DNA of 24,098 nt. It comes from a virus. Both the position numbers and the translations under genes were made by a program. Positions 3,665 to 22,147 of this stretch are shown here, in pieces. Position 1 is the stretch's first letter. Each line of letters starts with the position of its first letter. The stretch lies in the IMG/VR virus record IMGVR_UViG_3300032156_001162, positions 1-24,098 of that record. The stretch is one strand, 5' to 3'. Under the pieces are notes generated by a model that saw only the letters and a list, made by a program, of their open reading frames with translations, did no database searches and was not told where the DNA came from.

Positions 3665-4423
3665 CTAGAAGAGACGCGCCTGGAGGGGCGGCGCGGGAAC
3701 CCAGCGCCACGACGGCGACCAGAGACCACAGCAGGAACAGGGCGACCAGGAGCCACCGGCGGCGAGAAGAGGCGGCGGGCCAGCAAAGGCGGCCAGCACG
3801 AGCACAGGCAAACCGAAGCCAGCAGCGAGGCGGCACGACAGGAGAGAGCCACGCGAGAGCGGCGACGCGAGAAAGCAGACCAGAGAGCCGCGCCCGCCAC
3901 CGAGACCGCAACCGGACGCCACGGCGGACACCAGACAGGCGGACCGGCGCGCGAGCCGCACCCGAGCCGGCAGGGACGGAGGACCCCCCGCCGACCACAC
4001 GACGGAGGCGCCAGCAGCGACGGCGGCGAGGACGGAGGGCACCGAAGAGACCGGCGCGACCGCACCCGCGCCGCCAGGGCCGAAGACGGCAAAGACGCGC
4101 AGCAGCAGGAAGACGGCGGCAGCAGGCCGACCGGAGAGCCACGCGAGCGCCGCCGACAGCACCGCCTGATCAGCGCCGACGGAGCAGCCGACAGCGACGG
4201 AGAGGCCAGAGCCGAGGAGAGAGCGGACCACCGGGCCGACGCGCGCGCCGAGCGCACCGGAGAGAGAGCGAGAGCCGACAAGAGCCACGACACCGGACGG
4301 AAGAGGCAGAGCAGCCACGGACGGAACCCCCCAAGTGTTGAAAGCGGCAAAGGCCACCGCGAGCCACCCCCCCCGGGGCCCCGACGCCTTTGACACCTGG
4401 GGAAACCCCACCGGGGGGAACAA
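3665..4423 (-). CDS. SLOG-like Rossmann-fold protein (DprA/YspA-like nucleotide binder)
   Basis: Near residues 45-90 the sequence has VVALVGSRSLSG, then SLLGSGLSVAVG followed by CSVGADQAVL. This is the GSRs...G(A)xGAD signature of the SLOG superfamily, which also contains DprA/Smf and binds nucleotides or nucleic acid. A later segment with AAGFGLPVLVLAAF fits the final Rossmann strand. The first codon of the frame is TTG and its ribosome site is poor; a GTG start within the first 25 codons is equally possible. The coding strand is extremely pyrimidine-rich, unlike its neighbours, so it may have a different origin. The ligand is unknown. Confidence 0.6.
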   Translation of the reverse strand: MFPPVGFPQVSKASGPRGGWLAVAFAAFNTWGVPSVAALPLPSGVVALVGSRSLSGALGARVGPVVRSLLGSGLSVAVGCSVGADQAVLSAALAWLSGRPAAAVFLLLRVFAVFGPGGAGAVAPVSSVPSVLAAVAAGASVVWSAGGPPSLPARVRLARRSACLVSAVASGCGLGGGRGSLVCFLASPLSRGSLLSCRLAAGFGLPVLVLAAFAGPPPLLAAGGSWSPCSCCGLWSPSWRWVPAPPLQARLF

Positions 4424-4948: not shown

Positions 4949-5055
4949 CGGCTGCTCAACATAAAGCTTTTATGTTGAGGCTCGCGGAGGGAAGCCGAAG
5001 GCCTTTTCGCACTAATAGCGTTAGTGCGAAGAGCCGGAGCGAGCCGGAGCAGCCG
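4949..5055. repeat. Structured element, copy A (branched, cruciform-like)
   Basis: Outer stem P1 pairs 4949-4957 with 5047-5055, nine perfect pairs. Inside are hairpin P2 (AACATAAA/TTTATGTT, 4958-4976), stem P3 (GGCTCGC/GCGAGCC, 4979-4985 with 5039-5045) and hairpin P4 (5006-5015 with 5021-5030). Copy B at 13650-13760 has the same plan with compensating changes in P1 and P4. The single-stranded stretch GGAGGGAAGCCG is conserved. The element ends exactly at P1. Which strand is active is not known; all neighbouring genes run left. Confidence 0.75.
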
Positions 5056-5063
5056 ACGGGCGA

Positions 5064-5201
5064 TGGTGACGGGATCCGGCGGAGATCTCGGCTGCGGGTA
5101 GCCATGGGGTTTGGTGACGGGGTTTTGGTGCACCAAGCGGCGTGAGTCACCATGGGGCGTGGTGACAGGTGCAGCTCGACCTGGCGGGGTGGGCGTCGCC
5201 A
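5064..5201. repeat. Array of three inverted repeats with exact 48-bp period
   Basis: Units start at 5064, 5112 and 5160, each 48 bp apart, and are 41, 41 and 42 bp long. All begin TGGTGAC; the right ends are GTAGCCA (degenerate), AGTCACCA and CGTCGCCA. The first unit contains GGATCC and AGATCT. The array lies just right of structured element A. Even helical spacing suggests cooperative binding of one protein. Confidence 0.65.
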
Positions 5202-5202
5202 G

Positions 5203-5221
5203 TTGACATATCGTTTATAGT
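5203..5221. promoter_or_regulatory. AT-rich promoter-like pocket
   Basis: TTGACATATCG followed by TTTATAGT is a rare AT-rich island between an inverted-repeat array and the next repeat. It could drive the leftward accessory block (TATAAA on the minus strand) or be a rightward promoter, but neither direction has both hexamers at a normal spacing. Weakly supported. Confidence 0.25.
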
Positions 5222-5257
5222 GTGAAGGTTTTCAGCAGCCGTTTCGGCAGGTTTTGT

Positions 5258-5298
5258 TGGTGACAGCGAGGGGGCGGAGGGGAACGATCTTGTCACCG
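5258..5298. repeat. 41-bp inverted repeat
   Basis: Begins TGGTGACAG and ends TTGTCACCG. Its right part, GGAGGGGAACGATCTT, recurs as GGAGGGAACGATCTT at about 5377-5390, on the other side of the hairpin at 5310-5351. A degenerate copy (5390-5428, TGGCGGCTA...CTGTCGCCA) may cover the stop of the tail gene. Confidence 0.5.
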
Positions 5299-5307
5299 GC
5301 GAGTGCG

Positions 5308-5352
5308 GCGGGCCGTGTATTATTGTTGATTATTGGCCCGCCGCACGGTGTG
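5308..5352. terminator. GC-stem hairpin with AT-rich loop, after tail gene
   Basis: The arm TGCGGCGGGCC pairs with GGCCCGCCGCA around a 20-base loop with TATTATTGTTGATTATT. It lies about 45 bases beyond the stop of the leftward tail gene, so it may end the structural transcript. There is no T tract. Confidence 0.55.
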
Positions 5353-5395: not shown

Positions 5396-7537
5396 CTACC
5401 TGGCGGAGAGCTGCACTCGCTGTCGCCAGACGAGTTGAGGCTTGGTGGTGTCGAAGGTCTCTTCAATGCCTCTGACGCGGTAGACCTGTGACGTCACGCC
5501 GGCCCTGGCGTCGGTGATGGTGACGGCGTCCAGTAGCTGGAGGCCGAGGTTTGGTAGGGTCTCGATCTGGCCCCTGGTCTTGGTGGCGTCGTGCTTGCGT
5601 AGCTGAGCCACGGCTCGGGCGTCACACTCGGCGTTGGTGTCATAGGCGTAGTCGAAGATTTTCTGGAGGCGGTGTCCGACCAGGTTGATCTCGGTGTAGT
5701 CTACTTCGTCTCCAAAGACGGGGATGGCGTAGGCGTCCATGGTGGAGAACACTTCGATGTGGTTGTAGCCTGGGGTGCGGACTCCGTACCTGCCGGCGAT
5801 GATGACGTGGTTGGTGGCGCCGCCGTAGGTGTAGTCGCTGGCCTCGGCTGCGGCGAGTTGCTTGATGTAGGGGGTGGAGCCCTCCCAGTACACGAAGTCG
5901 GGTACTTTGGAGAGGACCTTGAGGACGGCGCCTCGGAGGTCCTCGCCTGGCAGGATGTTGATTGCCGGCTCGAGGGTGCCGATGACGGTGGAGGCCTCGC
6001 CTGCGCTGGCGAGCTCGAAGCCGGCGAGTGCGAACAAGCGTTCTGCTATGGTCCAGACTGAGGCTTCGCCGTCGGTCCATAGGTACTGCCTCTGAGCCGC
6101 CATCGATGCTAGGAGTCCCCAGCCTCCGATGAGGTAGAGTACCAGGTAGGATTTGCCCTCGAAGTCGGCGACGTACTCCCAATCTTCGATCCAGAAGGTG
6201 GGCCAGTCTGCGTACTGGTTGCCGGTGGTGGTGTGGTAGCCTCGGCGGAGCTCGAGCATGGAGCCGCGCTTGACGGCGATGTAGGTTCCGGAGCCGAGGG
6301 TGTTGAGGGCGCCGTCCTGGTTGTCGAGCCATATCTCGCCTTCCATGTCGGCGGTGACGTTCTGGCCGTAGTCTTCGGATACGCCGGCGCCTTTCCAGCC
6401 GGACCACCTGTCGAGGATCCTGTACTTGAGGAGCCTGGCTCCGAGGTCGACGGTGCCGTCGCCGGCGGCCTTGGCTCGGTAGGCGCGGTTGGAGTGGGAG
6501 GCGTAGACGTAGCCGTCTCCGGCGGCGCGGTAGTCGGTGACGCTGCCGTAGGTGCCTGCGAGTGCGAGGAAGGGCGAGGGGTCGGTCCACGTGGTTTCGA
6601 GGAAGGTTGCTCCGTAGATGCCTTGCATGCGTAGGAGCCTGGAATACTCCTCGCCTTCGAGGTAGGCGGAGAACACGGCGCGGAACATATCGACGTAGGT
6701 GAGGGACGGCCAGGCGGTGGCGAAGGCGGTGCCGGTGTCGGTTCTTTCGAGCAGGACCGGGTTGGCCCAGGTGTCTAGGGTGACGTCTACTCCGGTGCCG
6801 AAGGCGATGGCGTAGAGGGTCCACACCCAGGCGAGGCCGGCGCTGAGGCCGACACCGAAAAACGTGTAGGCGTCAACGTACGCTCCGTAAAGCATGTTGT
6901 AGTCGCCGGTCTTGTGGCAGGTGAGGCCTCGGATTTGCTGACAGGCGGTCTTGCCCCAGGCGGTGGCGGCGCCCCAGGCTCCGGCGGTCTGTTTGCGGTA
7001 GTAGAGGTGACAGGTGGCGTTGACGGCGGTGTCCCTGGTGGAGTAGAAGACGATGGCGTCTGTGCCGGTGCGGTGGGCGGCGGTGATGCTCTCTAGTTGG
7101 TAGGTGCCGGTGGCGGTGTGGACCGTGGTCGTGGCTCCCCAGGTAGCGCCGTAGTTGGCGCTCTCACGGCAGTAGAGGAGGAGGTTGGTGGCGGAGATGT
7201 AGAACCACCAGACCTTTGCTCCGGAGGTGCAGAGGGCCATCTGATTCATGGTCGAGCATGTGCCCATGCCTGCGGTCCAGGCGGTCCACTGGGCGGGGGT
7301 GGTGGGTGAAGTGATGCGCTGGTATTCGGCGGCGCCGGCGTTGCTGCGGACCCTGACGATGGAGTTGTCGGTGCAGATGATCATGGCGTGCGGGTAGTCT
7401 GCGGTGGCGTCGGTGTAGAGCTCGGCCCAGGTGAGGCGCTGGTGTGGTCCTAGCTTGTCTGAGACCAGGACCTGGAAGATGGGTTTGGTCCTGGCCTTCT
7501 TCTGAGCGACTAGTAGGGCTGCGCCGATGTCTAGCAT
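5396..7537 (-). CDS. Large tail / tail-tip protein, 713 aa
   Basis: The ATG at 7537 is chosen because GGAGG lies five bases upstream; the frame stays open to an ATG at 7627, but that part lies in a repeat. The first half has recurring Trp/Tyr-rich blades (for example TWAELYTD, TYVDMFRAVFS, GYVYASHSNRAYRA) like a beta-propeller or other all-beta repeat. The second half has EDWEYVADFEGKSYLVLYLI and later RLQKIFDYAYDT and VYRVRGIEETFDTT, the style of phage tail-tip or hub proteins that carry host-binding domains. It is the last gene of the structural operon. The role in adsorption is inferred from position and size. Confidence 0.7.
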   Translation of the reverse strand: MLDIGAALLVAQKKARTKPIFQVLVSDKLGPHQRLTWAELYTDATADYPHAMIICTDNSIVRVRSNAGAAEYQRITSPTTPAQWTAWTAGMGTCSTMNQMALCTSGAKVWWFYISATNLLLYCRESANYGATWGATTTVHTATGTYQLESITAAHRTGTDAIVFYSTRDTAVNATCHLYYRKQTAGAWGAATAWGKTACQQIRGLTCHKTGDYNMLYGAYVDAYTFFGVGLSAGLAWVWTLYAIAFGTGVDVTLDTWANPVLLERTDTGTAFATAWPSLTYVDMFRAVFSAYLEGEEYSRLLRMQGIYGATFLETTWTDPSPFLALAGTYGSVTDYRAAGDGYVYASHSNRAYRAKAAGDGTVDLGARLLKYRILDRWSGWKGAGVSEDYGQNVTADMEGEIWLDNQDGALNTLGSGTYIAVKRGSMLELRRGYHTTTGNQYADWPTFWIEDWEYVADFEGKSYLVLYLIGGWGLLASMAAQRQYLWTDGEASVWTIAERLFALAGFELASAGEASTVIGTLEPAINILPGEDLRGAVLKVLSKVPDFVYWEGSTPYIKQLAAAEASDYTYGGATNHVIIAGRYGVRTPGYNHIEVFSTMDAYAIPVFGDEVDYTEINLVGHRLQKIFDYAYDTNAECDARAVAQLRKHDATKTRGQIETLPNLGLQLLDAVTITDARAGVTSQVYRVRGIEETFDTTKPQLVWRQRVQLSAR

Positions 7538-7549
7538 GGGAGCCTCCGG

Positions 7550-7601
7550 TGGTGACAGGTCGTGCTCGAGCGGATCCCGATCTGAGGGTGGGCTGTCGCC
7601 A
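7550..7601. repeat. 52-bp inverted repeat, long class
   Basis: Begins TGGTGACAG and ends CTGTCGCCA. It shares the internal 20-mer CTCGAGCGGATCCCGATCTG with the 52-bp unit at the end of the portal gene (18294-18345). It lies 12 bases upstream of the tail-protein start codon and just outside its ribosome site, so it could influence that gene. Confidence 0.75.
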
Positions 7602-7608
7602 CTGGGTG

Positions 7609-7742
7609 TGGTGACAGAGTTATCCACATATCCACAGAGCTTTGGGGGGGTGTGGTGCTGTGGGCACCACCAGTGGTGCCCTGGGCACCAGCAGTGGTGC
7701 TGTGGGCACCACTAATAAAGACAATGAAGAAAGACAATGAAG
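7609..7742. other. Candidate replication origin: DnaA boxes, iterons, AT-rich 13-mers
   Basis: At 7620-7628 is TTATCCACA, a perfect consensus DnaA box, followed at once by TATCCACAG. Then three near-identical palindromic units, GTGGTGC-N(4-5)-GCACCA, start at 7652, 7673 and 7694, an exact 21-bp period. They are followed by AATAAAG and two perfect tandem copies of AAAGACAATGAAG (7717-7729, 7730-7742), the only purine- and AT-rich stretch nearby. DnaA boxes plus iterons plus AT-rich 13-mers is the classical origin layout. The likely initiator is the gene at 20998-21822, which itself contains one iteron. Confidence 0.7.
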
Positions 7743-7766
7743 AAGGAGAGATAAGAGTACATGGTT

Positions 7767-7808
7767 TGGTGACAGGGTGCAGCTGCCGGCAGTTCGCTGC
7801 GGACACCA
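7767..7808. repeat. 42-bp inverted repeat
   Basis: Begins TGGTGACAG and ends CGGACACCA, 7 of 9 matches to the consensus right arm. It adjoins the AT-rich end of the candidate origin and has an internal palindromic CAGCTGCCGGCAG. Confidence 0.6.
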
Positions 7809-7841
7809 CGCGGTGAGGGTGGAGGGGGGGCGAGAAGGCCG

Positions 7842-7931
7842 TGGTGACAGGGAGATCTCGGCGGCGACGTCCAGGAGACACCATTGGTGTGGTGTCACGG
7901 AGATGTGACCCGGGTGGAGTTTGTGTCACCA
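7842..7931. repeat. Two 42-bp inverted repeats with 48-bp period
   Basis: Units at 7842-7883 (TGGTGACAG...GAGACACCA) and 7890-7931 (TGGTGTCAC...GTGTCACCA). Both are 42 bp and their starts are 48 bp apart, the same period as the array at 5064-5201. Confidence 0.6.
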
Positions 7932-8010
7932 GTCCTCGAGATCGGCGTGGAAGTGGAGGTCTGTCTCGAGGCGGGTCTGTAGGGCGGTGGCCTCCCATGG
8001 GTCTAGTGCC

Positions 8011-10092
8011 TCACTCGTTAGTCTCGTTGAAGGGAAAGGGCGGCATCAGGGCGGGTCCTGGGCCGGCGTAGATGAAGGCGTCCAGCAGGTTCGCGCCTGG
8101 GCAGAGAGTGTAGACCAGGCGGCCGTGCGGGATGACGTAGAGGGGGCGGTATTGGTCCCACGCGCCGGCGCAGAACTCAGGGAGGACGCGCCAGATCAGG
8201 CGTCTGAGGGTGATTAGCTGCGCGGGGGTGGGGCGTTGCTTGTCGTAGTGGCCGAGGACGCAGACGCCTACTGCCTCGGCGTTGGTTGACTCCTTGCCGC
8301 TGTGTGGAAGTCTCCACATGAGGCGGCCTGTCCAGAAGAGGCGGCCGTCGAAGCCGACGACGAAGTGGTAGGGGATGGTGGCGGCTCCCTTGCTGACGTG
8401 GTAGCGGGCTATGGAGAGCGCCGTCTGCGTGGCGAGCTGCGATCCTGAGTGGTGCAGTACCACGAGGCGAATGAGGGAGAACGGGCGCCAGAGCTTGGCG
8501 AGCTCGGGCATGTTGGAGAAGGACTCTATCTCGTTGCGGAGGTCCACCATGTCGGTGATGCCGTGCGGGGTGAAGGCGGTCACCAGGTCGTAGGGCCTGG
8601 GCGGGGGCCAGGGCGCGGGTGTGGGTGTGGGCGTTGGTATGGGAGCGGGCTCGGGCTCCGGCGCTGGCTCCGGCTGCGGGGCTGGCTGTCCGGTGACGCG
8701 CTGGAAGTACACGAGTACCGGATGATGGCCCTTGAAGCGTTCGTCCAGGTCCGACCCGTAGAGCCCGAGGCCGCTGACCTTCTCGCTGTTGCCGACGATC
8801 TCCACGGCGTAGGCTCCCCAGGGTGCAAACATGGGCATCGATGCGGCCCACTGGCGCGCTCCGTCCGGCTCGTAGGCGTCTGCCTTTGGTGCGCCAAAGG
8901 TGTCACCGGTGGACCAAGAGAAGCGGGCCTGGACGGCTGCGCCGGGCGGGAGCACTGCGTAGAGGACCATCTTGTCGGAGTCTGGCTGCACCTCCACTTT
9001 GGTGACGGTCCAGCGTGGCTCCGCTGGTTTGGGAGCCGCCGTGATCGTGACGGCGGCTTTCATGGTGTCGGTGAGTCGGTCCCAGTCGACGGGTGTTGGC
9101 GGGGTGGGCGCGGGTGTGGGTGTGGGTGTGGGTGGCGGTGTGGGTGCCGGCTGTGGCTGTGAGGCGTCGGCGATGCAGGCTGCCTCGACTGCGTACACGA
9201 CGGGCCTGTGACTCTCGGGGTTGGAACCGTTAGCGTGGCAGAAGGCAAACCAGCCGGTGCCTGGGTCTCCGCCGATCCAGAGGGCGATGCCCTTGACTTG
9301 GGGGTAGAGGTCGCCTAGCAAGCGGAGGTAGGCGACGGTCTCCTGGCCGCGGACTGTGTTCTGGTCTGCGGCCTGTCCGGAGCCGATGCCGTAGCTGCCC
9401 TCGACGATGTAGACGGGCTTGCGTTGGAGGTACTTCATGTATTCGAGGAAGCGCAGACCGTGGGCGGGGTCTTTGTACTGGCCTGGTGCCATGCCATAGG
9501 TGTGGACGAAGTGCACGTCGAGTGCACTGAGGGCGGCGGCGCAGGGGGAGCTGGCAAACTTGCCGTCGCGTCCGTGGTAGTAGTAGACGGCCTCGGGGTC
9601 GTTGGGGTAGCGGACGTCTCGGTTGCCGACGGTGAGATGCGGACCGCCGATCCTGATGCCTGGGAGGTCTCGCTTGGCGATGGAGATGAATAGCAGGAGC
9701 GCTTCGTTGTACCGCTCGATGTCGTCCTCGGTGTCACCGAAGCCCTCCCACTGGGCCCAGGATGGCATGTTGGGTTCGTTGAAGGGTTTGAGCATGAGGT
9801 ACTTGAGGGGGATGCCGGCGTCGATGCAGCGGCGTGCGAGTAGGACGGACTGATCGGCGTGGGCGCCCCAGGCTGCGTCGCCTCCGCCTCCTTTGGGGGG
9901 TGAGTAGTACCGGCGGAGCACGAGCGGTGGTCGGCCTGCGAGCTCCCAGGCGTCGCGTAGGGTTTCGATCTGTGACTCTACGACGCGCTCCATGGCGAGC
10001 AGCAAGCTGAGGGGTGACCACCTGCGGATCATATCGAGGTCTGCGGGGGTGATCGGGCACTCGTTGTGGAAGTGGAGTCCTGGTCTGAGCAT
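8011..10092 (-). CDS. Two-domain lysin: glycoside-hydrolase-like plus N-acetylmuramoyl-L-alanine amidase, 693 aa
   Basis: The ATG at 10092 has a CAGGAGGG site. Residues 1-300 resemble a TIM-barrel glycosidase: LKPFNEPN gives a candidate acid/base Glu106 in an NEP motif, and PVYIVEGSYG a candidate nucleophile near 231. A PTPTPAP linker (about 311-332), an all-beta middle domain and a second PEPAPEPEP linker (about 467-500) follow. The C-terminus is an Amidase_2/PGRP-type domain with VVLHHSGS, YHFVVGFDG and a final TLCPG, which supply zinc ligands and cut the bond between muramic acid and L-alanine. No signal peptide is seen. It may be an endolysin or a virion-borne wall enzyme; its size and place just before the tail gene favour a virion role. 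Confidence 0.8.
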   Translation of the reverse strand: MLRPGLHFHNECPITPADLDMIRRWSPLSLLLAMERVVESQIETLRDAWELAGRPPLVLRRYYSPPKGGGGDAAWGAHADQSVLLARRCIDAGIPLKYLMLKPFNEPNMPSWAQWEGFGDTEDDIERYNEALLLFISIAKRDLPGIRIGGPHLTVGNRDVRYPNDPEAVYYYHGRDGKFASSPCAAALSALDVHFVHTYGMAPGQYKDPAHGLRFLEYMKYLQRKPVYIVEGSYGIGSGQAADQNTVRGQETVAYLRLLGDLYPQVKGIALWIGGDPGTGWFAFCHANGSNPESHRPVVYAVEAACIADASQPQPAPTPPPTPTPTPAPTPPTPVDWDRLTDTMKAAVTITAAPKPAEPRWTVTKVEVQPDSDKMVLYAVLPPGAAVQARFSWSTGDTFGAPKADAYEPDGARQWAASMPMFAPWGAYAVEIVGNSEKVSGLGLYGSDLDERFKGHHPVLVYFQRVTGQPAPQPEPAPEPEPAPIPTPTPTPAPWPPPRPYDLVTAFTPHGITDMVDLRNEIESFSNMPELAKLWRPFSLIRLVVLHHSGSQLATQTALSIARYHVSKGAATIPYHFVVGFDGRLFWTGRLMWRLPHSGKESTNAEAVGVCVLGHYDKQRPTPAQLITLRRLIWRVLPEFCAGAWDQYRPLYVIPHGRLVYTLCPGANLLDAFIYAGPGPALMPPFPFNETNE

Positions 10093-10110
10093 GGTCCCTC
10101 CTGTGTTGGT

Positions 10111-10152
10111 TGGCGACAGGATCCGGCCACGTGGGCGGGACGTCTGTCGCCA
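10111..10152. repeat. 42-bp inverted repeat, perfect arms
   Basis: TGGCGACAG and CTGTCGCCA are perfectly complementary; relative to the consensus both arms carry the matching change (T to C, A to G), as expected if symmetry matters. It contains GGATCC. It lies upstream of the lysin start. Confidence 0.75.
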
Positions 10153-10169
10153 TGGGTGAGCCTCCCAGC

Positions 10170-10213
10170 GCGGCGGGCCTTGTATCATTTTGGGTTATTG
10201 GCCCGCCGCGCGG
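10170..10213. terminator. GC-stem hairpin with AT-rich loop
   Basis: GCGCGGCGGGCC pairs with GGCCCGCCGCGC, 12 pairs, around a 20-base loop with TATCATTTTGGGTTATT. It is flanked on both sides by 42-bp inverted repeats. It lies downstream of the tiny membrane-protein gene and upstream of the lysin, so it probably limits read-through into the lysin. Confidence 0.55.
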
Positions 10214-10299
10214 TGGTGACAGGTCAGCGGATGATCAGCGGATCCGCTGTCGCCAGTTGGCGTCAGCATCGATGGTGGCCACCGCGATCGGTGTCACCA
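10214..10299. repeat. Two adjacent 42-bp inverted repeats
   Basis: Units at 10214-10255 (TGGTGACAG...CTGTCGCCA) and 10258-10299 (TGGCGTCAG...GTGTCACCA), two bases apart. The second covers the stop codon of the 51-residue gene at 10294. The first has an inner AGCGGATCCGCT palindrome. Confidence 0.65.
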
Positions 10300-11408: not shown

Positions 11409-12917
11409 TCAGAACCTGGCCTGGTCGATGGCGTCTAGCGGGTCGGGGGCGCGGATGATGAGCGATGGGAGCGGGACGGCCCACTGGACTTTATCGAGCT
11501 CGGCGACCAGGGCGGCGGATAGGAGTCTGTCGTCGTGGATGGTCGCGCTGGGGACACCCCAGCTCATGCGTTTCTCCTCTCCCTCGGTGACTTCGTAGCG
11601 GCACTCTTCGACCTGGGTCCAGAACTCGCGCCAGTCTGCGGAGCCGTCGTCTCGGTAGTGTTTGAAGCGGCCTGTCTCCACCACGGTGAGGAAGTCCCAA
11701 CCCAGGTCACTCTTGCGCTTTGGTGGCGAGAACTGGAAGGGGGTGACTCGGCTCCCGAAGGCGTGCTTTGCGCCGAGGAACGCTACCAGGCCAGCGCCTA
11801 CGCCCGAGGCGTCGGCCACGATGTGTCGTGGGTTCCAGAGCTCGAAGTAGGCGCGGAGTTGACCGTACAGCCTGGTGTGCTTGGTGCCGACGTCCGAGAA
11901 CACGTCCACGAGGTGGTAGGAGGGGGCGGCCAGGAGGGGGTCTCTGACGGTGGCGAGATCGATGCGGAAGATGGAGGCGACGGTGAGGTCTTTCGTCGGC
12001 TTGGCCTCTCGGAGATCGTCACCGGTCATCTCCTCGTCTGAGCCGGCAACGTCGAGGGTGGCGGCGTAGATGGCGCCTTCGGTGGGGGCGGCCTGGCGGG
12101 GGTGAGTGCCTTGCATGAGCGCCTGTCTGCGGTCGTCGAACATGCGGCCCTCGGAGTCGATCTCCTCGAGAAAGTATTGGGTTTTGATCATGGGGTGGTG
12201 GCGTCCCTTGCGGGCGATCTCTGCGGTGACGTGCTCTCCGTAGGCTGGTACTTCGGCGGCTACGTCCTGCCAGGGGACGTAGAACACGCGCTGCTGGCCG
12301 TCGGTGGCCTCAAGTGCGAGTAGGTTCCTGCTGATCTTGGCGAGCATGGTGCGGGACGTCCAGACGGTGCCATAGTAGACCTTGGTGGCGTTGGTGGAGG
12401 CGGTCATGGGGGTGAAGTCTACTTCCCATTTCTCCTCGTTGACGTCCTGGGCCTCGTCGCACTCGAGGAGGAGTGACGCGGTGGCTCCTACGACCTGGGA
12501 GGCGGGGTCGGCGCTGAGGAAGATGACGCAGGCTTTGCCGAGGAAAGTTATGTAGCCCTCGCGGGTCTTGACGTGTCCCTTGTTCCATGGGTTGTCGAGG
12601 ACGTCTTGCAGGCGCATCTTGGAGTTGATGAGCTGTGGCTTGTAGGTGGGGGCGGCCTTGACGATCTGGCCGCCCTTGCGTTGGAAGATGTTGAGCAAGT
12701 AGGCCTCGAGCTGCGCGCTGAGCTCGTTCTTGCCTGCCTGCCTGGAAAAGACGATGGCGAAGGAGAGACCTTTGCCGTGCAGGATGGAATCGAGGATGGC
12801 GTCTGCGGGTGCGAGCTGGTAGTTGCGGAGGGGGCGCTTGACCACCAGTCGGGAGAACCATCGGATGTTTGACAGGATGCGGGTTGCTAGGTGCTGAACG
12901 GGTCGCGTGAGCACCAT
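11409..12917 (-). CDS. terL: Terminase large subunit, 502 aa
   Basis: The N-terminal ATPase has a Walker A-like SRQAGKNE (residues 58-65), a Walker B LLLECDEAQDV (about 149-159) and a coupling segment VYYGTVW. The C-terminal nuclease has the acidic trio in LDVAGSDE (about 289), VADASGVG (about 368) and HDDRLLSA (about 462). It pumps DNA into the capsid through the portal and cuts it. The start ATG at 12917 has no good ribosome site, perhaps because an inverted repeat (12928-12970) sits there; translation may depend on coupling or on another start. Confidence 0.93.
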   Translation of the reverse strand: MVLTRPVQHLATRILSNIRWFSRLVVKRPLRNYQLAPADAILDSILHGKGLSFAIVFSRQAGKNELSAQLEAYLLNIFQRKGGQIVKAAPTYKPQLINSKMRLQDVLDNPWNKGHVKTREGYITFLGKACVIFLSADPASQVVGATASLLLECDEAQDVNEEKWEVDFTPMTASTNATKVYYGTVWTSRTMLAKISRNLLALEATDGQQRVFYVPWQDVAAEVPAYGEHVTAEIARKGRHHPMIKTQYFLEEIDSEGRMFDDRRQALMQGTHPRQAAPTEGAIYAATLDVAGSDEEMTGDDLREAKPTKDLTVASIFRIDLATVRDPLLAAPSYHLVDVFSDVGTKHTRLYGQLRAYFELWNPRHIVADASGVGAGLVAFLGAKHAFGSRVTPFQFSPPKRKSDLGWDFLTVVETGRFKHYRDDGSADWREFWTQVEECRYEVTEGEEKRMSWGVPSATIHDDRLLSAALVAELDKVQWAVPLPSLIIRAPDPLDAIDQARF

Positions 12918-12927
12918 GGCGTGGTGT

Positions 12928-12970
12928 TGGTGACAGGATGATCACTGGCAGCCGGCAGTGACTGTCACCA
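12928..12970. repeat. 43-bp inverted repeat with perfect arms
   Basis: TGGTGACAG and CTGTCACCA are perfectly complementary, and an inner TCACTG/CAGTGA pair is nested inside. It fills the whole gap between the adaptor stop (12971) and the terminase start (12917). Confidence 0.75.
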
Positions 12971-13618
12971 CTATATCTCCTCTCTGGTGTCGGGGCGCTT
13001 CCAGCCTTCGGTGCGCTTGTCTAGTTTGAGGGTCTCGGTGGCCTTGAGCTGGCGGAGTTTCTCGGCGAAGTGGGCCATGCGGTCTTTGCCCCACGCTTCC
13101 CAGTGCTTGGGGGTGTCGGTGGAGATGCCGGCCTGGACGACTGAGGAGCGGGCTTTCTCGAGGGCGGCGTAGGCCCCGGCTCCGAAGGTCACGATCTCCT
13201 CGTCCTCGGGTGCGACGCTGGTAACGGCGGTGGAGCCTGCCAGGTCGTGGATGGTCTGCGGTGTGGTGTAGTACACGCGGATGACTTCGGCGATGGCGGG
13301 GACGTTGCCGTCGAGGATGCGGAGGGTGCTGCCCCAGTGCTCGAAGCGCCTCCACTCGGGCGGGTCCTCGGGGTTGGCGGCGGTGTAGGGGTGCCAGACG
13401 CGCACGACTCGAATGAGGCTGGTGAGGGTGGTTAGAGACTGTTCGCGGGTGGCGGCGGCGACGGTGATCGTGCCGGTGATCTGCTGGGGTCTGACGTGGC
13501 TGTAGTCTGAGAGGGCGCGCTGGATGGCACGGTCGATCTCGGCGGTGGTCCACGTGTCGGCTGCGGCGTCGTCGAGGTCGGCTTGGACCAGGAGTCGGAG
13601 TGCTAGAAGCTCGCTCAT
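12971..13618 (-). CDS. Head-tail adaptor / connector protein, 215 aa
   Basis: The N-terminal pattern (VQADLDDAAADTWTTAEI followed by DRAIQRALSDYS) is the usual opening of head-tail connector proteins that dock onto the portal: a helix, a WT-x-x-E-ID turn and a second helix. The middle part is beta-rich and the end is helical (ALEKARSSVV, HFAEKLRQLKATET). It lies directly upstream of the terminase. No classical ribosome site stands out; the gap before it holds structured element B. The connector function is inferred from pattern and position. Confidence 0.7.
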   Translation of the reverse strand: MSELLALRLLVQADLDDAAADTWTTAEIDRAIQRALSDYSHVRPQQITGTITVAAATREQSLTTLTSLIRVVRVWHPYTAANPEDPPEWRRFEHWGSTLRILDGNVPAIAEVIRVYYTTPQTIHDLAGSTAVTSVAPEDEEIVTFGAGAYAALEKARSSVVQAGISTDTPKHWEAWGKDRMAHFAEKLRQLKATETLKLDKRTEGWKRPDTREEI

Positions 13619-13649
13619 GCTGTGTGCTCCTTGGCTGGTGGGTGAGGTA

Positions 13650-13760
13650 GCGCCCTGCTTAACATAAAAGGTTTATGTTGAGGCTCGCGGAGGGAAGCCG
13701 GAGGCCTTTTCGCACTATGGGCCATAGTGTGAAGAGCCGACGCGAGCCGTAGCAGGGCGC
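13650..13760. repeat. Structured element, copy B
   Basis: Outer stem GCGCCCTGCT (13650-13659) with AGCAGGGCGC (13751-13760), ten perfect pairs; hairpin AACATAAA/TTTATGTT (13661-13679); stem GGCTCGC/GCGAGCC (13682-13688 with 13742-13748); and hairpin 13709-13720 with 13722-13733, 12 pairs including one G-U. The inner 88 bases align without gaps to copy A (4958-5045), while P1 and the P4 tip differ by compensating changes. It occupies the gap between two virion genes. It may act as an RNA in the leftward transcript, a processing site, or a DNA cruciform. Confidence 0.78.
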
Positions 13761-13772
13761 GGCGGTGGGCGG

Positions 13773-14042
13773 TCATCGGTAGGCTACCGTGACCTTGGGA
13801 GCGGTGCCGGTGATGGTGGCGTAGAGGCCGACGCCAAAGGCGACGTCGAGGCGGGCGGTGGTGGAGAGGCCGGCTGCGGCTGCCAGGGCGATGATGCTGT
13901 CACCTGCGGTGGCTACTTCGTCTCCGAGGACGATGGTTGCGGCGTCGGAGCCTCCGGTGAGGGTGACGGTGTGGATGACGCCAGGGCCGGTCTTGATGAG
14001 GGCGCTGGCTGCCAGGTAGCTGTACTGGTAGATCTCGGGCAT
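13773..14042 (-). CDS. Small virion-type beta protein, 89 aa
   Basis: The sequence is beta-strand-rich with VIHTVTLTGGSDAATIVLGD and a repeating Ala/Thr pattern, like many small decoration or tail-fibre accessory proteins. The start ATG at 14042 has AGGAGG upstream. It lies between a baseplate-type protein and the adaptor. The exact function is not known. Confidence 0.65.
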   Translation of the reverse strand: MPEIYQYSYLAASALIKTGPGVIHTVTLTGGSDAATIVLGDEVATAGDSIIALAAAAGLSTTARLDVAFGVGLYATITGTAPKVTVAYR

Positions 14043-14052
14043 GGGGTTCCTC

Positions 14053-14916
14053 CTAGGTTGGTCGTGGTATCACTGCGGCGAAGTCGAGCAGGACGTTGAG
14101 CACGCCGCTCTCGCGGTAGCACTGGCAGTAGGGCTCGAGGTAGTTTGATGGGAGGTTGGTGCTGTGTGTGCAGGCTAGGGCGCCGTCGACGTGCAGGGTA
14201 AGTGCGGTGGAATTGATGGTGAGGGCGAGTTTGTGCCAGGTTGAGGGGTCGACGGGAATGGCGCTGGGTGTGGAGCTTTGTGCGCCTGCGCTGTCTCTCG
14301 ACCATATGATCCAGTTGGGGCTGACGGCGGAGGAATAGCCGGCTTGGCAGAGGTTGCTGGTGCCGATCTCGATGGCCCCGATCATGGCTTGGCCGGTTCC
14401 CAGTCTGTCTGGGACCATCCTGGCTAGCATTATGGTCTCGTACTGAGGGGCCATGCGTATGGTGGAGAATCCGCCGGCGCCGCTGCCGAGAAAGAGTCGT
14501 GCGTATGCTCCGGCTGTGTTTGGTACTGTGAGGTAGTAGACGCCGCCGTGCGAGGAGTCTGTGAGGGTGCCGGTGCCTCCCCCGGCGGTGGTGAGGGTGA
14601 GGCGGGGGTCGAGGGTGTCTCCCTGGAAGTCCTCGGACCAGCCTCGCATGATGTCGGTGAGCGTGAGAGTCGGTCCCCATTCGTCGGTGATCAGGGGTGG
14701 TGCGGGTGGGCTGCCGAAGGTGGAGAGCACGAGGCCTTGTGAGGCTTCTGCGAAGAAGGCGACGGCACAGGGGGTGCCTTCGATCATGTGGTCGGGTGGC
14801 ACCTGTTGGGAGACAGGGATGCCGAGGATGGTCCTGGACATCGAGCCGGCGAGTAGGACGGCGGCGGTGTGTGTGGCGGCGTCGTAGGCCCTGACTAGCC
14901 CTCGGTGAAGCTCCAT
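14053..14916 (-). CDS. Baseplate/tail protein with gpV-like N-terminus and lectin-like fold, 287 aa
   Basis: Residues 1-75 resemble the OB-type start of phage baseplate V proteins (GLVRAYDAATHTAAVLLAGS and GTPCAVAFFAEASQG). After a linker, residues about 92-285 look like a concanavalin/LamG-type sandwich: WSEDFQGDTLDPRLTL, a central WIIWSRDSAG, and WHKLALTINSTALTLHVDG, the typical strand that carries the ligand face. Such folds bind glycans, so it may recognise the host surface. The start ATG is at 14916. Its stop is 11 bases before the next gene. Confidence 0.7.
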   Translation of the reverse strand: MELHRGLVRAYDAATHTAAVLLAGSMSRTILGIPVSQQVPPDHMIEGTPCAVAFFAEASQGLVLSTFGSPPAPPLITDEWGPTLTLTDIMRGWSEDFQGDTLDPRLTLTTAGGGTGTLTDSSHGGVYYLTVPNTAGAYARLFLGSGAGGFSTIRMAPQYETIMLARMVPDRLGTGQAMIGAIEIGTSNLCQAGYSSAVSPNWIIWSRDSAGAQSSTPSAIPVDPSTWHKLALTINSTALTLHVDGALACTHSTNLPSNYLEPYCQCYRESGVLNVLLDFAAVIPRPT

Positions 14917-14933
14917 GCCGCTCCGGTGGTAGG

Positions 14934-15012
14934 GAGCGGGGAGAGCGCGTTCCCCCGAAGCCGCTCTCTCTCCCCGCTCGTAGCCAGTGCGCGGGGTGGT
15001 GAGGCCCGCGCA
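14934..15012. terminator. Two tandem hairpins between virion genes
   Basis: Hairpin 1 pairs GAGCGGGGAGAGCG (14934-14947) with CGCTCTCTCTCCCCGCTC (14962-14979), with a small bulge. Hairpin 2 pairs TGCGCGGG (14988-14995) with CCCGCGCA (15005-15012). They lie just after the stop of the 124-residue virion protein and may tune or cut the transcript. Confidence 0.5.
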
Positions 15013-15023
15013 GAGGTCTCAGA

Positions 15024-15398
15024 CTAGCCCTGGTCTCCTGCGAGATACCAGATAACGACGTCGCCCGCAGCGGTGGGGGCGGTGCCTCCGGTGAAGTTCC
15101 AGTCGATCTCGACTTCGCTGCCGGCGGCGATCACGACGGGGGCCTCGGTGCCTCCCATGTGGACGGATTTCCAGGTGCCGGGCGTCAGTGCCGTTGCGGC
15201 GGCGATGGCAGTGATGACGTCGGTGCCGTCGTCCTGGATGTCGATGTCGAAGCCGGTTGGCGTGCCGGTGAAGACTGTGGCGCAGAGGGAGACGCCGACG
15301 ATGGTCATTGCCTCGAGTGCCGAGAAGTCCACGACGCTTGAGGTGGCGGCGATGGGCGCCACGTGGAAGCTGAGGGTTCTCATGACTTCGTTAGCCAT
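15024..15398 (-). CDS. Small virion protein, 124 aa
   Basis: Beta-rich throughout, with MTIVGVSLCATVFTGTPTGF followed by DIDIQDDGTDV, TWKSVHMGG and SEVEIDWNFTGG. It resembles head-decoration or tail-accessory proteins in composition, but no family is certain. The start ATG at 15398 has AAAGGAG; a second ATG at 15383 is possible. It lies four bases after the membrane protein upstream and before a tandem hairpin. Confidence 0.65.
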   Translation of the reverse strand: MANEVMRTLSFHVAPIAATSSVVDFSALEAMTIVGVSLCATVFTGTPTGFDIDIQDDGTDVITAIAAATALTPGTWKSVHMGGTEAPVVIAAGSEVEIDWNFTGGTAPTAAGDVVIWYLAGDQG

Positions 15399-15402
15399 GG
15401 TG

Positions 15403-15741
15403 TCACTCTCCTTTCCCGGTGACGGTCTTGACGGCGTGTGCGGCTCCGTGGGTGGCTTGCGATGCGAAGTAGGCCACGAACCCGACCTGGAGTCCTGTCG
15501 CCAGTGTGTCGATCTCGCAGGTGCCTCCCCAGGAGACGAAGGTGATCGAGATGTTGAGGATGCGGCCTGTGCAGCCGACGATCCAGGGGGCCGCGCCCAG
15601 GATCACACAGCCTACGAGCCAGGCGAAGCGCTTCTGCTCCCAGCCGAGTTCGTCCCAGCGTTTGCGGAGGCCTGGGATCAGCTCGAGGAGGAGCGCCAGG
15701 ACGGTTGATAGGATGGCTGCTATCCACGCTGCTGTGACCAT
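15403..15741 (-). CDS. Three-segment membrane protein, holin-like, 112 aa
   Basis: Hydrophobic segments lie at about 4-24, 39-57 and 80-100 and there is a charged end ending KTVTGKGE. The stretch LLELIPGLRKRWDELGWEQK between segments 1 and 2 is characteristic of a small membrane-protein group in phage structural operons that is often labelled holin or unknown. A holin would let the lysins reach the wall, but its place next to the capsid gene, away from the lysins, makes this unsure. Start ATG at 15741 with AGGAGG. Confidence 0.6.
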   Translation of the reverse strand: MVTAAWIAAILSTVLALLLELIPGLRKRWDELGWEQKRFAWLVGCVILGAAPWIVGCTGRILNISITFVSWGGTCEIDTLATGLQVGFVAYFASQATHGAAHAVKTVTGKGE

Positions 15742-15758
15742 GTAAGCCTCCTGTCATT

Positions 15759-15856
15759 TGGTGCAGCGGGCCACGCTCAAGTTGATGGCCATGTGTGGTC
15801 GCTGTCACCATTGTTGGTGACTGGGGCCCCGCGAGCTGGCGGGACCTGTGTCACCA
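15759..15856. repeat. 52-bp and 42-bp inverted repeats before the capsid stop
   Basis: The unit 15759-15810 starts TGGTGCAGC and ends CTGTCACCA (52 bp). The unit 15815-15856 starts TGGTGACTG and ends GTGTCACCA (42 bp) and stops one base before the capsid stop codon (15857-15859). Both size classes occur here side by side. Confidence 0.65.
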
Positions 15857-17896
15857 CTACGCGACGTTGGACTTGTGGAGCGGACGGTAGTCCGCGACAC
15901 CTACGGCGACGAAGAAGCGGCACTTGATTCGCATCTCGTCGTTGGTGAACATGGAGCCCACGGTCTGATCGTCGGCTAGGAATAGCTCGGGCTCGCGCCC
16001 GTACCTGTACCCGATGCAGATGCCGGGGCAATCGTTGGGGTCGCACACCGCGGCCCAGTTGTTGGGGTCGGTCCACTCTGGCACGACCACGACTCGGCCG
16101 CTGCCTGCCCTGGGCTCGAGGTAGTGGTACGTCGCTTCGACGGACCACGGCTGCTCGAAGATGCTGAGGGCCGTCCTCTCAAGCTCGATGGGCACCAGGC
16201 AGAACTGCGGGCGGATGGCAAGCGGGGCGCTGGACGTGGGCTCCGTCTGCTGGTACACGGCCTGAATGACGGCGTCCCAGGCTGCGGCGCTGAGGGCCGT
16301 GGTGAGGAGGTTGACGTGGTTGGTGGCGTCGAACACGTGGTAGTTGTCGGTCATGAGAGGGCCTGTGCCCGAGTCGGAGGTGAAGAGGGCGGAGACCAGG
16401 GCCGAGAGTGTGCGCCAGGCTGCGTTGCCGAGCTCCCTCGGGATGCGCTTGACGGATCCCACGTCGTCGCGGTCCATCATCTCGAGGGTGATGCCGATGT
16501 AGCCGCCCTTCTTGAGGAAGGTGCCTGTCTCCTCGTTGTCCGACCAGTCCAGCTCGGTGTAGGCGCCGCCTTCGGCCACGGTGGGCAAGGCTCCGATGCC
16601 TCCGCTCTTCATCCAGGTGATCGTGTTGAGGTTGCCGAAGTCCTCCTCGTGGGCGATGGAAGCCCACCACCTGGGCCGCACGTTGTACGCCTGCAACAGG
16701 ACCTTGTTGAGGGCGTTCTTGACCACGGAGGTCATCGATGCCGTGGTGACGTTGGCGAGCTTGACTCTCTCGGGGTAGAAGCGCCCGTAGAAGTCGTGAT
16801 CTCCCGTCATCATGAGGTAGAGCTCGCGGATGCCCGACAGCCTGGGGATGTCGGACTGAGCGTCCGGGATGGGCAGGCCCATGAGACGGTCGAAGGCGAA
16901 CTGTACGCGGTCCATGCTGCTGAGCATGCCAGAGGCGCGGGCGCCGTCGATGGCCTGGCCGGCGCCGGTGATGACCTTATCTTCCAGCATGCCGGCTAGC
17001 ATGGTTCGGTAGCGCTTGATCTCGGCGTCGAGGGTGTCTGGTGCAAAGGCGCGGCCTGCGAACTGCGCTCTGATGGCGTCCTTCATCGGTTGCGGCAGGT
17101 CGCACCAGGTGAGAGCACCGTCTAGCACGGTCTGACATTGGGAGCGCAGCAGGTCTTGAGCCTGCTGTGCCGCCGCGTCCATGGCGGCTGCGGTGTTGAT
17201 GGCCGCGCTTGTGGAGTCGGCTTGCGCGGCGTGTCCGAGTTGGACGTCCTGTGTGACTCGTGTCTCCTCGGCCCTGGGGGGCGTCGAGGCGGGCGGCGAG
17301 TCTGGCGGCTGTGCCCCTGGATTGGTGGTGGTTTCGTCCTTCATGGTACTTCCCCCTTTCATGGAGTTGAGGACGCGATCGAACGCCCCGCCTGCGGCGG
17401 GGTCGAACACAACATCAACGGACTGCACTCTGCGGATCTCGGTCGCGACTCTGGTGGAGCCGTCCATGTAGTAGCCGGCGTAGAGGTCCGCTGACAGTCC
17501 CACATTTGGCACAGGCAATCCCTCCTCTCGGTCTGAGATGATCTGGTCGAGTAGGTACTCGAGCCAGTCTGCGGCTGGTGTGCGGTTGAGGGCCAGGCGG
17601 CCGGTGAGTGCGCCCGAGGGTGTGACGGCTTGGTCCCAGGCGACGTCGGTGATCACCCCCGCGAGGTCCTTGATGCTCGGGTTGGCGTCCTGGAAGAAGC
17701 CTGGCTGCACGTGGTCGACGAAGCAGGCGGCCCCTTGGAAGCGGGCGGCTGCTGTCTGTAGCACCGATGGCGGGAAGTGCCACCGGTGGAGGGTGGGTCC
17801 GGCCTTGATGATGGTGATGGCGTAGTTGGGCTTGGCCGTGAGGTTGGACGCGAAGGTGAGTTGGATTCGCTTCTCTTGCGGCTCTGTGGCGCTCAT
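15857..17896 (-). CDS. Prohead protease-major capsid protein fusion, 679 aa
   Basis: Residues 1-180 look like a capsid maturation protease: FVDHVQPG (His62), GLSADLYAGYY (Ser135) and VQSVDVVFDPAAGGAFDRVL, the final strand typical of prohead proteases. A Thr/Pro-rich linker (about 180-225) and a helical delta-like region follow. From about 340 the sequence resembles gpT-type major capsid proteins, with YTELDWSDNEETGTFLKKGG, DRDDVGSVKRIPRELGNAAW and HVFDATNHVNL. Protease and capsid are usually separate genes; the fusion may cut itself. The start ATG at 17896 overlaps the upstream stop (ATGA). Confidence 0.82.
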   Translation of the reverse strand: MSATEPQEKRIQLTFASNLTAKPNYAITIIKAGPTLHRWHFPPSVLQTAAARFQGAACFVDHVQPGFFQDANPSIKDLAGVITDVAWDQAVTPSGALTGRLALNRTPAADWLEYLLDQIISDREEGLPVPNVGLSADLYAGYYMDGSTRVATEIRRVQSVDVVFDPAAGGAFDRVLNSMKGGSTMKDETTTNPGAQPPDSPPASTPPRAEETRVTQDVQLGHAAQADSTSAAINTAAAMDAAAQQAQDLLRSQCQTVLDGALTWCDLPQPMKDAIRAQFAGRAFAPDTLDAEIKRYRTMLAGMLEDKVITGAGQAIDGARASGMLSSMDRVQFAFDRLMGLPIPDAQSDIPRLSGIRELYLMMTGDHDFYGRFYPERVKLANVTTASMTSVVKNALNKVLLQAYNVRPRWWASIAHEEDFGNLNTITWMKSGGIGALPTVAEGGAYTELDWSDNEETGTFLKKGGYIGITLEMMDRDDVGSVKRIPRELGNAAWRTLSALVSALFTSDSGTGPLMTDNYHVFDATNHVNLLTTALSAAAWDAVIQAVYQQTEPTSSAPLAIRPQFCLVPIELERTALSIFEQPWSVEATYHYLEPRAGSGRVVVVPEWTDPNNWAAVCDPNDCPGICIGYRYGREPELFLADDQTVGSMFTNDEMRIKCRFFVAVGVADYRPLHKSNVA

Positions 17897-18252
17897 TGCG
17901 ACTCACCTTTGGTCCACGTCCTCTTGAAGCCGGTCGGCCCCTCGATGATGACCACCTGGTCGTCGTAGACCTTGAAGCTGAGGATGTTGGCGGCGTCGAT
18001 GCCGAGGGCGGCGCAGGCGTCGTCTATGAGCTTGGCGTCTCGGTACTTGTTGTGGGTGGGGTCGAAGCCGGCGGTGAGTTGGGGGAGGGTGAGATCGTCG
18101 GATGCGGAGGGGCCGACGTAGTTGTCGCCTTCACCGAGCGCGGGTTCGAAGGCGGCGGGGGTGAGGGGGTCGCGTTGGGCGTGTGTCTTGGCGTGGGCCT
18201 TGAGTCCGCTCCTGCTCTTGTAGGGCTTTCCGCAGATGGTGCAGTCTGGCAT
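17893..18252 (-). CDS. C2H2 zinc-finger protein in the head operon, 119 aa
   Basis: Residues 4-24 have CTICGKPYKSRSGLKAH followed by AKTH, a C-x2-C-x12-H-x3-H finger like the eukaryotic type and rare in bacteria and phages. After a disordered acidic linker, residues about 68-119 form an alpha/beta end with AKLIDDACAALGIDAANIL and VVIIEGPTGFKRTW. It lies between portal and protease-capsid with an AAGGAGG site at the start. It may bind the portal, DNA or the capsid; the function is not known. Confidence 0.75.
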   Translation of the reverse strand: MPDCTICGKPYKSRSGLKAHAKTHAQRDPLTPAAFEPALGEGDNYVGPSASDDLTLPQLTAGFDPTHNKYRDAKLIDDACAALGIDAANILSFKVYDDQVVIIEGPTGFKRTWTKGESQ

Positions 18253-18290: not shown

Positions 18291-19709
18291 CTATGGTGAC
18301 AGTTTCTTCTCGAGCGGATCCCGATCTGGCGGGGCGCTGTCACCATCGCCAGCGCCCCCCTCAATGGGGTTATCGGTGGGTTGGACTCCGGCCTCTTTGA
18401 GGTCACGCATCATGGCTTCCACGTCGATGATCTCACCTGCGAACTTGTAGGCAAGCTCGATGGCTTTGCGGTCGGTGATCCAGCCTAGACTCTTGAGCTG
18501 GCGCAGGTATTCGACAATGGTCTTGGCTGCTCGAGCGACCTGGAAGCTGTCTTGCTCGCGGAGGGCCGAGACGGTGTAGTTGAGTTGAAGGCCGCGGGGC
18601 GCGCCGGGTTCTGTGGCGCGGGGGTAGTGGAGTCTGCCGAGGATGTGGGCGCGGTGTGCTGCCTTCTCTACGACGTCCACGATCATGTCACAGAAGAACT
18701 TTTGTCGGTGTTCGTAGTGGCGCATGGTGGGGCTGGTCATCTCGGCGGCGGTGGCCCTGGTGGCGCTCTCGGCCTCTGCTAGGTAGTGCAAGGGGACGCC
18801 GGCGCCTGCTGCGATCATGAGCCTGAGTGCCTTGCCGTCGGCCTCTACGTCCTCGGCGTGGATCTCTGGCTGGACGGGGGTCCAGTCTTCGTTCTCGTCG
18901 GTGACGATGACGGAGCCTGGGGATGGCGGCTCGGTGTACTGAGCCTGTTTGGCTAGGATGTCTGCGGTCTGTGCGCCTTGGAGTTTGACGTGCCAGAGAA
19001 AAGCGTTCTTGTAGCGGTTGACTCGTACTCGGTCCTCTAGCCATTCGCGATACCTGCGGAGCCAGGGCAAGAGGGGCGTCAAGTCTGACTGGCCTCGGAT
19101 GCAGCCGACGGGTCTGTTGATGGCGTAGTGCAGGATGGCGGGTTGTGTGGCGTCGTCCTTCACGGCGTCCCAGGCGTCCCACCACTTTCCGTTGATGGGG
19201 TCGTCGTCTCTGAGCTCGTGGTAGCGGAGCTCTTTCTCTAGGTCCTCGGGGTCTGTCTCGATGCGGTCTATCTTGACGGCGTTGATGGCTCGGAAGTAGC
19301 TGAGGCCGTCGGCGGGGTTGGTGTAGAGGATGATGAAGAGGTCGCCGGCGCGGGTCAATTCCTCGCACCAGGTGTAAAGGCGGAGGTGTAGCTTGTTGAG
19401 GCGGTGGGTCCAGAGGTCGGAGACGAAGCGGTCCACGGCGGGGGCCTTGGAGGTGACCTGGACGCCGGCGCCGACTACGTAGTCGGTGGTCAGGCTGACG
19501 ATGCGGAAGGCGAGGGGGTTTGTGCGCCACGCCTCAAGTGCATCGTCGAGGTCCGTCTTTAGCTCCCACCACTTTTTGTCCTGGGGCCCTGCGGCTCCGC
19601 CGACTTGGCGCCACCACTTGTCGTCGATGACCTTGACGGCGTTCTGGATGCGCTGCTCTATGAGTGAGCCGAAGAGTCGGTCTGCGATGCGGTCCCTGAT
19701 GGCGGTCAT
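18291..19709 (-). CDS. Portal protein, 472 aa
   Basis: Typical portal segments include DYVVGAGVQVTSKAP near 80, GCIRGQSDLTPLLPWL with REWLEDRVRVNRYKN (about 203-235), and GVPLHYLAEAESATRATA with TSPTMRHYEHRQ (about 305-335), the conserved clip/stem region. It forms the ring at one capsid vertex through which the terminase moves DNA. The start ATG at 19709 overlaps the upstream gene by four bases. The last 17 or so residues (DRDPLEKKLSP) are encoded by a 52-bp dispersed repeat, so this end was probably acquired. Confidence 0.88.
   Translation of the reverse strand: MTAIRDRIADRLFGSLIEQRIQNAVKVIDDKWWRQVGGAAGPQDKKWWELKTDLDDALEAWRTNPLAFRIVSLTTDYVVGAGVQVTSKAPAVDRFVSDLWTHRLNKLHLRLYTWCEELTRAGDLFIILYTNPADGLSYFRAINAVKIDRIETDPEDLEKELRYHELRDDDPINGKWWDAWDAVKDDATQPAILHYAINRPVGCIRGQSDLTPLLPWLRRYREWLEDRVRVNRYKNAFLWHVKLQGAQTADILAKQAQYTEPPSPGSVIVTDENEDWTPVQPEIHAEDVEADGKALRLMIAAGAGVPLHYLAEAESATRATAAEMTSPTMRHYEHRQKFFCDMIVDVVEKAAHRAHILGRLHYPRATEPGAPRGLQLNYTVSALREQDSFQVARAAKTIVEYLRQLKSLGWITDRKAIELAYKFAGEIIDVEAMMRDLKEAGVQPTDNPIEGGAGDGDSAPPDRDPLEKKLSP
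18294..18345. repeat. 52-bp inverted repeat inside the portal 3' end
   Basis: TGGTGACAG and CTGTCACCA are perfect complements 52 bp apart, ending directly beside the portal stop codon (18291-18293). It shares CTCGAGCGGATCCCGATCTG with the unit at 7550-7601. Both copies translate in one frame to a similar DRDPLE-containing peptide, though only the portal copy is coding. Confidence 0.78.
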
Positions 19710-20599: not shown

Positions 20600-21001
20600 C
20601 TAGGTGTCACTGAGCCACCTGTAGTGTGCTGTTGGGACGGGTTCTCGGGGGCATAGTGTGTCGGCGAGTCCGAAAGTGGTCATGGGTAGGCGGGTGTCGT
20701 TGATGATGGAGAGGCCGGCGAGGTTGCCACAGGTGCCGTCGGGTTTGGTGGTCCAGGCCGGGCCCAGGATGCGGGCGGGTAGTTGGAGCAAGAGGTAGAC
20801 AGGGTCGCGTCCGGTGGCGTCGCGGTAGCGGGGGATGGTGTCGGTGAGTAGTAGCTCGTAGAGGTCGTGGACCAGCTGGGGGGTGGCGAGTTTGGCGCGT
20901 GAGCCTAGGTCTCCGAGGGCGGTGTGCCAGTCGTACCAACGGTATTCTCGGGGTGGGTCAGCGGCGTGGAAGGTGGGGAGGGTCAGTTGGTCGGCGGTCA
21001 T
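20600..21001 (-). CDS. Hypothetical protein downstream of the initiator, 133 aa
   Basis: Starts with an ATGA overlap at the initiator stop (20998-21001), so it is translationally coupled. The sequence has YRWYDWHTALGDLGSRAKLA, helical HDLYELLLTDTIPRYRD and a mixed end with TFGLADTLCPREP. It may be a replication accessory such as a helicase loader, because of its position, but no P-loop or other motif is present. Confidence 0.7.
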   Translation of the reverse strand: MTADQLTLPTFHAADPPREYRWYDWHTALGDLGSRAKLATPQLVHDLYELLLTDTIPRYRDATGRDPVYLLLQLPARILGPAWTTKPDGTCGNLAGLSIINDTRLPMTTFGLADTLCPREPVPTAHYRWLSDT

Positions 21002-22131: not shown

Positions 22132-22132
22132 G

Positions 22133-22146
22133 CCAACACCGGTTGG
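22133..22146. promoter_or_regulatory. Imperfect palindrome, candidate switch operator
   Basis: CCAACACCGGTTGG is a near-palindrome lying just beyond the -10 box of the leftward promoter, where a bound repressor would block initiation. Which of the two helix-turn-helix proteins binds it is unknown. Confidence 0.4.
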
Positions 22147-22147
22147 T

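Follow-up and report, generated by a model that had tools for sequence, protein, structure and literature searches.

A probable iteron and DnaA-box replication origin, set apart from its initiator gene, in a small temperate phage

The 24,098-base virus record analysed here is referred to throughout as the window. Its ends share an exact repeat of 127 bp (1–127 and 23972–24098); the record is thus circular or terminally redundant, and its 23,971 bp either form a complete circle or were joined into one during assembly. The minus strand carries the structural genes, and on the plus strand a serine recombinase gene spans the circle junction, with a repressor-like gene adjoining it; the phage is small, temperate and integrating. 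Searches of genome contigs with the tail and initiator alignments returned no relative and hence no host assignment. The locus of interest occupies the 470-bp gap between the lysin gene (8011–10188, minus strand; Amidase_2), which lies upstream of it, and the tail gene (5396–7537, minus strand), which lies downstream and whose ATG start at 7537 was taken from alignment with relatives. A longer version of the tail reading frame reaching 7627 is probably spurious.

Elsewhere in the window, elements of roughly 45–55 bp, constant in their outer arms (TGGTGACA/TGTCACCA) but variable in their inner stems, recur at many gene junctions (419–520, 5159–5266, 7549–7617, 7766–7850, 10213–10263, 12927–12971, 15802–15857 and 18293–18346). 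For several, folding of the gene strand predicts strong hairpins (z −2.3 to −4.4), the arms also occur in related phages, and the one at 7549–7617 overlaps the edge of the locus described below. There are also two dispersed repeat pairs, both mostly intergenic: one of 101 bp (4952–5052 and 13655–13755) and one of 49 bp (5302–5350 and 10167–10215), each with 86% identity. An open reading frame of low complexity at 3665–4423 (minus strand) shows a weak DprA/SMF-like match (PF02481, E 0.018, below the cut-off) and an atypical base composition (AT skew +0.65), perhaps reflecting a recent acquisition, and a 119-aa protein whose gene sits between those for capsid and portal (17893–18252, minus strand) has an N-terminal C2H2 zinc finger barely above the Pfam cut-off.

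The lysin-tail gap contains a closely packed series of elements. On the plus strand lies a perfect DnaA box, TTATCCACA (7620–7628), which alone of all sequences in the window's 24 kb fits TTWTNCACA (0.13 matches expected) and has counterparts in three related contigs; it is followed on the same strand by ATATCCACA (7628–7636). Beside the boxes stand three iterons with palindromic 7-bp arms: GTGGTGCTGTGGGCACCAC at 7652–7670, the variant copy GTGGTGCCCTGGGCACCAG at 7673–7691 (84%), and GTGGTGCTGTGGGCACCAC once more, letter for letter, at 7694–7712. The middle copy agrees with the other two at 16 of 19 positions, yet is itself the better palindrome. Two exact plus-strand copies of the 13-mer AAAGACAATGAAG, at 7717–7729 and 7730–7742, complete the series. 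The initial annotation had described a perfect DnaA box, three palindromic iterons at an exact 21-bp period and two perfect 13-mer repeats, in this arrangement within 135 bp; all are found in place, and their arrangement goes beyond chance as judged from shuffled sequences and expected counts. The second box that it reported does overlap the first, by one base, and carries one mismatch. The 21-bp array is the top tandem repeat of the window (score 101, the next being 67), and its period match of 34 of 40 columns exceeds that of all 300 of 300 dinucleotide shuffles in which any period of 18–23 was allowed (shuffle maximum, 28). Direct repeats at a helical period and a DnaA box beside the array, both traits of iteron origins, are thus found together at this place.

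A third such trait, an easily opened AT-rich region adjoining the array, is seen in the energetics of the duplex. When stability was computed from nearest-neighbour stacking energies over 50-bp stretches, the least stable 50 bp of the window fell at 7712–7761, a patch that is purine-rich on the plus strand; its value of −1.17 compares with −1.27 for the next-weakest stretch, and it is less stable than the best of 300 dinucleotide shuffles. In all four genomes considered (the window and the fetched sequence of three related contigs) the AT-rich patch beside the iterons is the least stable 50 bp, which constitutes strong evidence for a DNA-unwinding element.

Relatives of the phage were gathered by means of the tail gene, the identity of the tail protein to that of the window being 93% in L038, 77% in L039, 67% in L040, about 64% in L042 and L041 (one species) and 68% in L050 (a fragment). 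In the lysin-tail gap of L038, L040 and L042, the arrangement recurs in the same order even as the sequence itself has diverged: an AT-rich repeat patch is followed by palindromic iterons, three or four in number, and these by one to three sites resembling DnaA boxes. L040 has two perfect boxes in this place, and every box of L042 has at least one mismatch. Since iteron copy number differs among the four origins, MAFFT misplaces the iterons, and the four-origin alignment was set aside in favour of one with the iterons in register. Across the resulting 14 iteron copies from four genomes, the period is 21 bp without exception and the outer letters TGGTG and CAYCA are invariant, with a variable center. 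The same gap in L039 and L050 contains other sequence and no array; in the L039 contig, a fragment only, no initiator with a DnaA_N domain was found. A wider search with an iteron 16-mer matched 22 contigs, a count that by our own estimate fits chance for so large a collection, and among these the array was present in the two relatives only. The additions from a looser search for 21-bp pairs look like protein-coding repeats only, and distant blastn comparison of the origin with phages gave only AT-rich chance matches. As a separate observation, L042, the phage contig of genome G003, carries directly after its tail gene (12414–16298, minus strand) two apparent C5 cytosine methyltransferases, an HNH-like nuclease and a HhH-GPD glycosylase-like protein; with the protein identities read from the sequences alone, this block is probably a restriction or defence cassette, and its skew is weaker than that of its flanks.

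The candidate initiator is encoded at 20998–21822 on the minus strand, as a protein of 274 aa with a probable N-terminal helix-turn-helix (HTH) region and a C-terminal DnaA domain I. It matches the Pfam domain DnaA_N (PF11638; 27 bits, above the cut-off of 24.6) and phrog_26369, a family annotated as replication initiation protein. AlphaFold models residues 181–270 well and the remainder poorly, and in Foldseek this well-modelled part matches domain I of Bacillus subtilis DnaA (4tps) with a TM-score of 0.92 over the target; the C-terminal DnaA domain I that marks pBS72-type initiators is accordingly present. The N-terminal part aligns with HTH-bearing relatives, and the HTH_36 model itself gives no match in this region of low AlphaFold confidence. 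As the N-terminal model is of low confidence, binding of the iterons by this protein is something that we infer. By tblastn, the initiator is akin to those of Brevibacillus phages (27%, 3e-7) and homologous to a protein from a Paenibacillus plasmid, with 93% of the phage protein covered (1e-10), and through these two sets of relatives it is linked to about 40 plasmid proteins of Bacillales, that of pBS72 included; the direct pairwise comparison with the pBS72 protein gives 4e-9. Judged on these matches, the protein belongs with the pBS72-like initiators that combine an HTH with DnaA domain I, a membership that covers the protein and not the replicon layout. This kinship matters because the pBS72-based derivative pNDH33 is a working theta plasmid whose replication is thought to be DnaA-dependent and DNA polymerase I-independent (PMC5615212). 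In Escherichia coli, domain I of DnaA mediates self-interaction and DnaB binding (PMC5448010), roles which suggest what the fused domain may do in the phage initiator.

An indirect tie between the array and this protein comes from a position matrix built from the 14 origin iterons. In the window it returns four strong sites, namely the three iterons of the array and a fourth copy, missing from the initial annotation, that lies within the initiator coding sequence, where the linker joining the HTH region to DnaA domain I is encoded (21293–21311, 18/19; match span, 21291–21311). The latter scores 28.1 bits, and the next site of the window, an unrelated one, 12.6. Both in the window and in G001, the only strong site away from the origin thus falls within the initiator gene; the sister G003 is without it. 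Between the window and G001, the intragenic iteron is conserved at 19 of 21 positions, and 43% of gene windows are equally conserved; its conservation, being unexceptional, was therefore set aside as evidence of selection.

The initial annotation had looked to a GC-skew peak as a mark of the origin. None was found: the skew is positive throughout, with no turn at 7.6 kb, and so lacks the change of sign that characterizes a bidirectional origin. At four-fold degenerate sites, G outnumbers C on the plus strand both in plus-strand genes (229 vs 51) and in minus-strand genes (2015 vs 429), such that the bias tracks the strand and not the genes. In G003 the bias likewise lies on one strand, but with the opposite polarity relative to the origin. 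Given this single sign and the flip of polarity in a relative, the skew neither supports nor refutes the origin. The same reversed polarity argues against reading the one-sign skew as unidirectional replication. A one-sign bias with lineage-dependent polarity would be expected if these genomes existed mostly as integrated prophages copied passively by host forks. This one-strand skew is very strong, at about 0.65 over four-fold sites for plus- and minus-strand genes alike; seen in both the window and L042, it may also be a mark of the orientation of the prophage in the host chromosome.

The reading of the locus as an origin, as initially proposed, draws support from the order and spacing conserved in relatives, the strand-opening energy, the iteron in the initiator gene and the homology of the initiator to those of theta plasmids; the same independent computed evidence speaks for the accompanying proposals that host DnaA is used and that the 20998–21822 product is the phage initiator. 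On computational grounds, this small temperate phage very probably replicates from the region 7620–7761. In such an origin, the initiator would bind all three palindromic iterons along the same side of the helix, 21 bp amounting to two turns, and host DnaA would occupy the two boxes beside them. The two proteins might then jointly melt the AT-rich 13-mer patch, with the C-terminal DnaA-domain-I module helping to load the host replicative helicase or coupling the initiator to host DnaA, following which theta replication would begin with host enzymes.

Palindromic arms of 7 bp in an intergenic region would also suit a dimeric regulator, and repressor-like genes are indeed present at 21806–22027 and 22087–22668; one may hence consider the palindromes as operators of a repressor- or Cro-like regulator over the late tail gene, with the AT-rich patch as its promoter. 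However, no iteron-like site lies between these two divergent regulator genes, where operators are expected, no match to a sigma-70-type promoter occurs within 7400–8200, and such a reading leaves the DnaA boxes and 13-mers unexplained; the sole outside copy of the iteron lies in the initiator gene. We consider it improbable. The boxes and the unwinding patch are equally left unaccounted for if the array is taken as the partition site of a plasmid-like prophage. Iteron arrays can also be centromeres, and the Brevibacillus phage Jenst, related by its initiator, encodes ParM; but among the genes scanned none could be recognised as coding for ParA, ParM or a centromere-binding protein, and the phage carries a serine recombinase, making a centromere highly unlikely. 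Hardly more can be said for taking the array, placed as it is between lysin and tail genes, to be a structured RNA or a transcription terminator. The minus-strand transcript of the iterons does fold well (−43.2 kcal/mol, z −5.2), but this is a consequence of the palindromes; neither a terminator-like match nor an Rfam family was found there, and a terminator needs neither exact 21-bp phasing nor DnaA boxes.

With the locus read as an origin, its most peculiar aspect is its position: the full array lies about 10–13 kb from the initiator gene, in which a single iteron is found, and the usual though non-defining placement of pBS72-type origins, in or next to the initiator gene, is not seen. It is reasonable to suppose that an ancestral origin in or at the initiator gene later moved to the late cluster, leaving one iteron behind. 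A bolder conjecture, to which we would give a rather low probability, is that the phage split an ancestral origin-in-gene system, with the array and its DnaA boxes now in the late-gene cluster and the intragenic iteron acting as a possible distant control site that, by looping or pairing of initiator-bound iterons, ties initiator expression to origin use, DnaA domain I of the initiator directly recruiting the host helicase or host DnaA.

The locus and gene provide a delimited candidate origin-initiator pair for an uncultured group of GC-rich phages and connect this group with the initiators bearing DnaA domain I that plasmids and phages of Bacillales encode. The four natural variants, with differing iteron letters on a common layout, allow direct tests of the specificity of the initiator and of what the borrowed DnaA domain I does, and so compact a pair could serve as a laboratory-vector replicon in GC-rich hosts.

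Among known systems, the pBS72-type theta replicons of Bacillales plasmids share with the phage a homologous initiator, probably of the same two-domain build (HTH and DnaA_N), and the proximity of iterons and a DnaA box. Their array, in contrast, stands just downstream of the initiator gene and is AT-rich (ATTAAAATTTAAT) and irregularly spaced, whereas in the phage GC-rich copies follow one another at exactly 21 bp, remote from the gene. Arrays just downstream of the initiator gene are found in the Paenibacillus, pBS72, B. licheniformis and FADO relatives, accompanied by DnaA boxes in the last three. The Brevibacillus phage Jenst, whose initiator JENST_4 has HTH_36 and DnaA_N, possesses iterons, a pair of perfect DnaA boxes and a stretch of AT-rich sequence containing AATAAATACAAT; there, the whole set lies within the linker of the initiator gene, while the linker in the window holds the single iteron only. 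The motif AATAAATACAAT also stands beside iterons in a P. rhizovicinus plasmid and in L040, and was considered as a universal unwinding motif, but most other members of the family are without it in that position.

A parallel might also be drawn with lambda ori, where iterons adjoin an AT-rich tract and lie inside the initiator gene (PMC7466680). The single intragenic copy of the phage is likewise in its initiator gene, but the lambda origin lies entirely within gene O. Lambda ori also requires the phage protein P as helicase loader and is not known to have DnaA boxes in such an arrangement. The order of DnaA boxes, iterons and a 13-mer unwinding element is that of RK2 oriV (PMC4980987). The phage origin mirrors this order, with the difference that RK2 has five 17-bp iterons and four DnaA boxes. 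In RK2, too, the initiator gene is distant from oriV, and its TrfA is a different initiator from that of the phage. The phage system is unusual in the separation of its origin from the initiator gene and in its lone intragenic iteron; very probably it is a well-conserved representative of an origin type known from plasmids and phages, set apart mainly by that distance.
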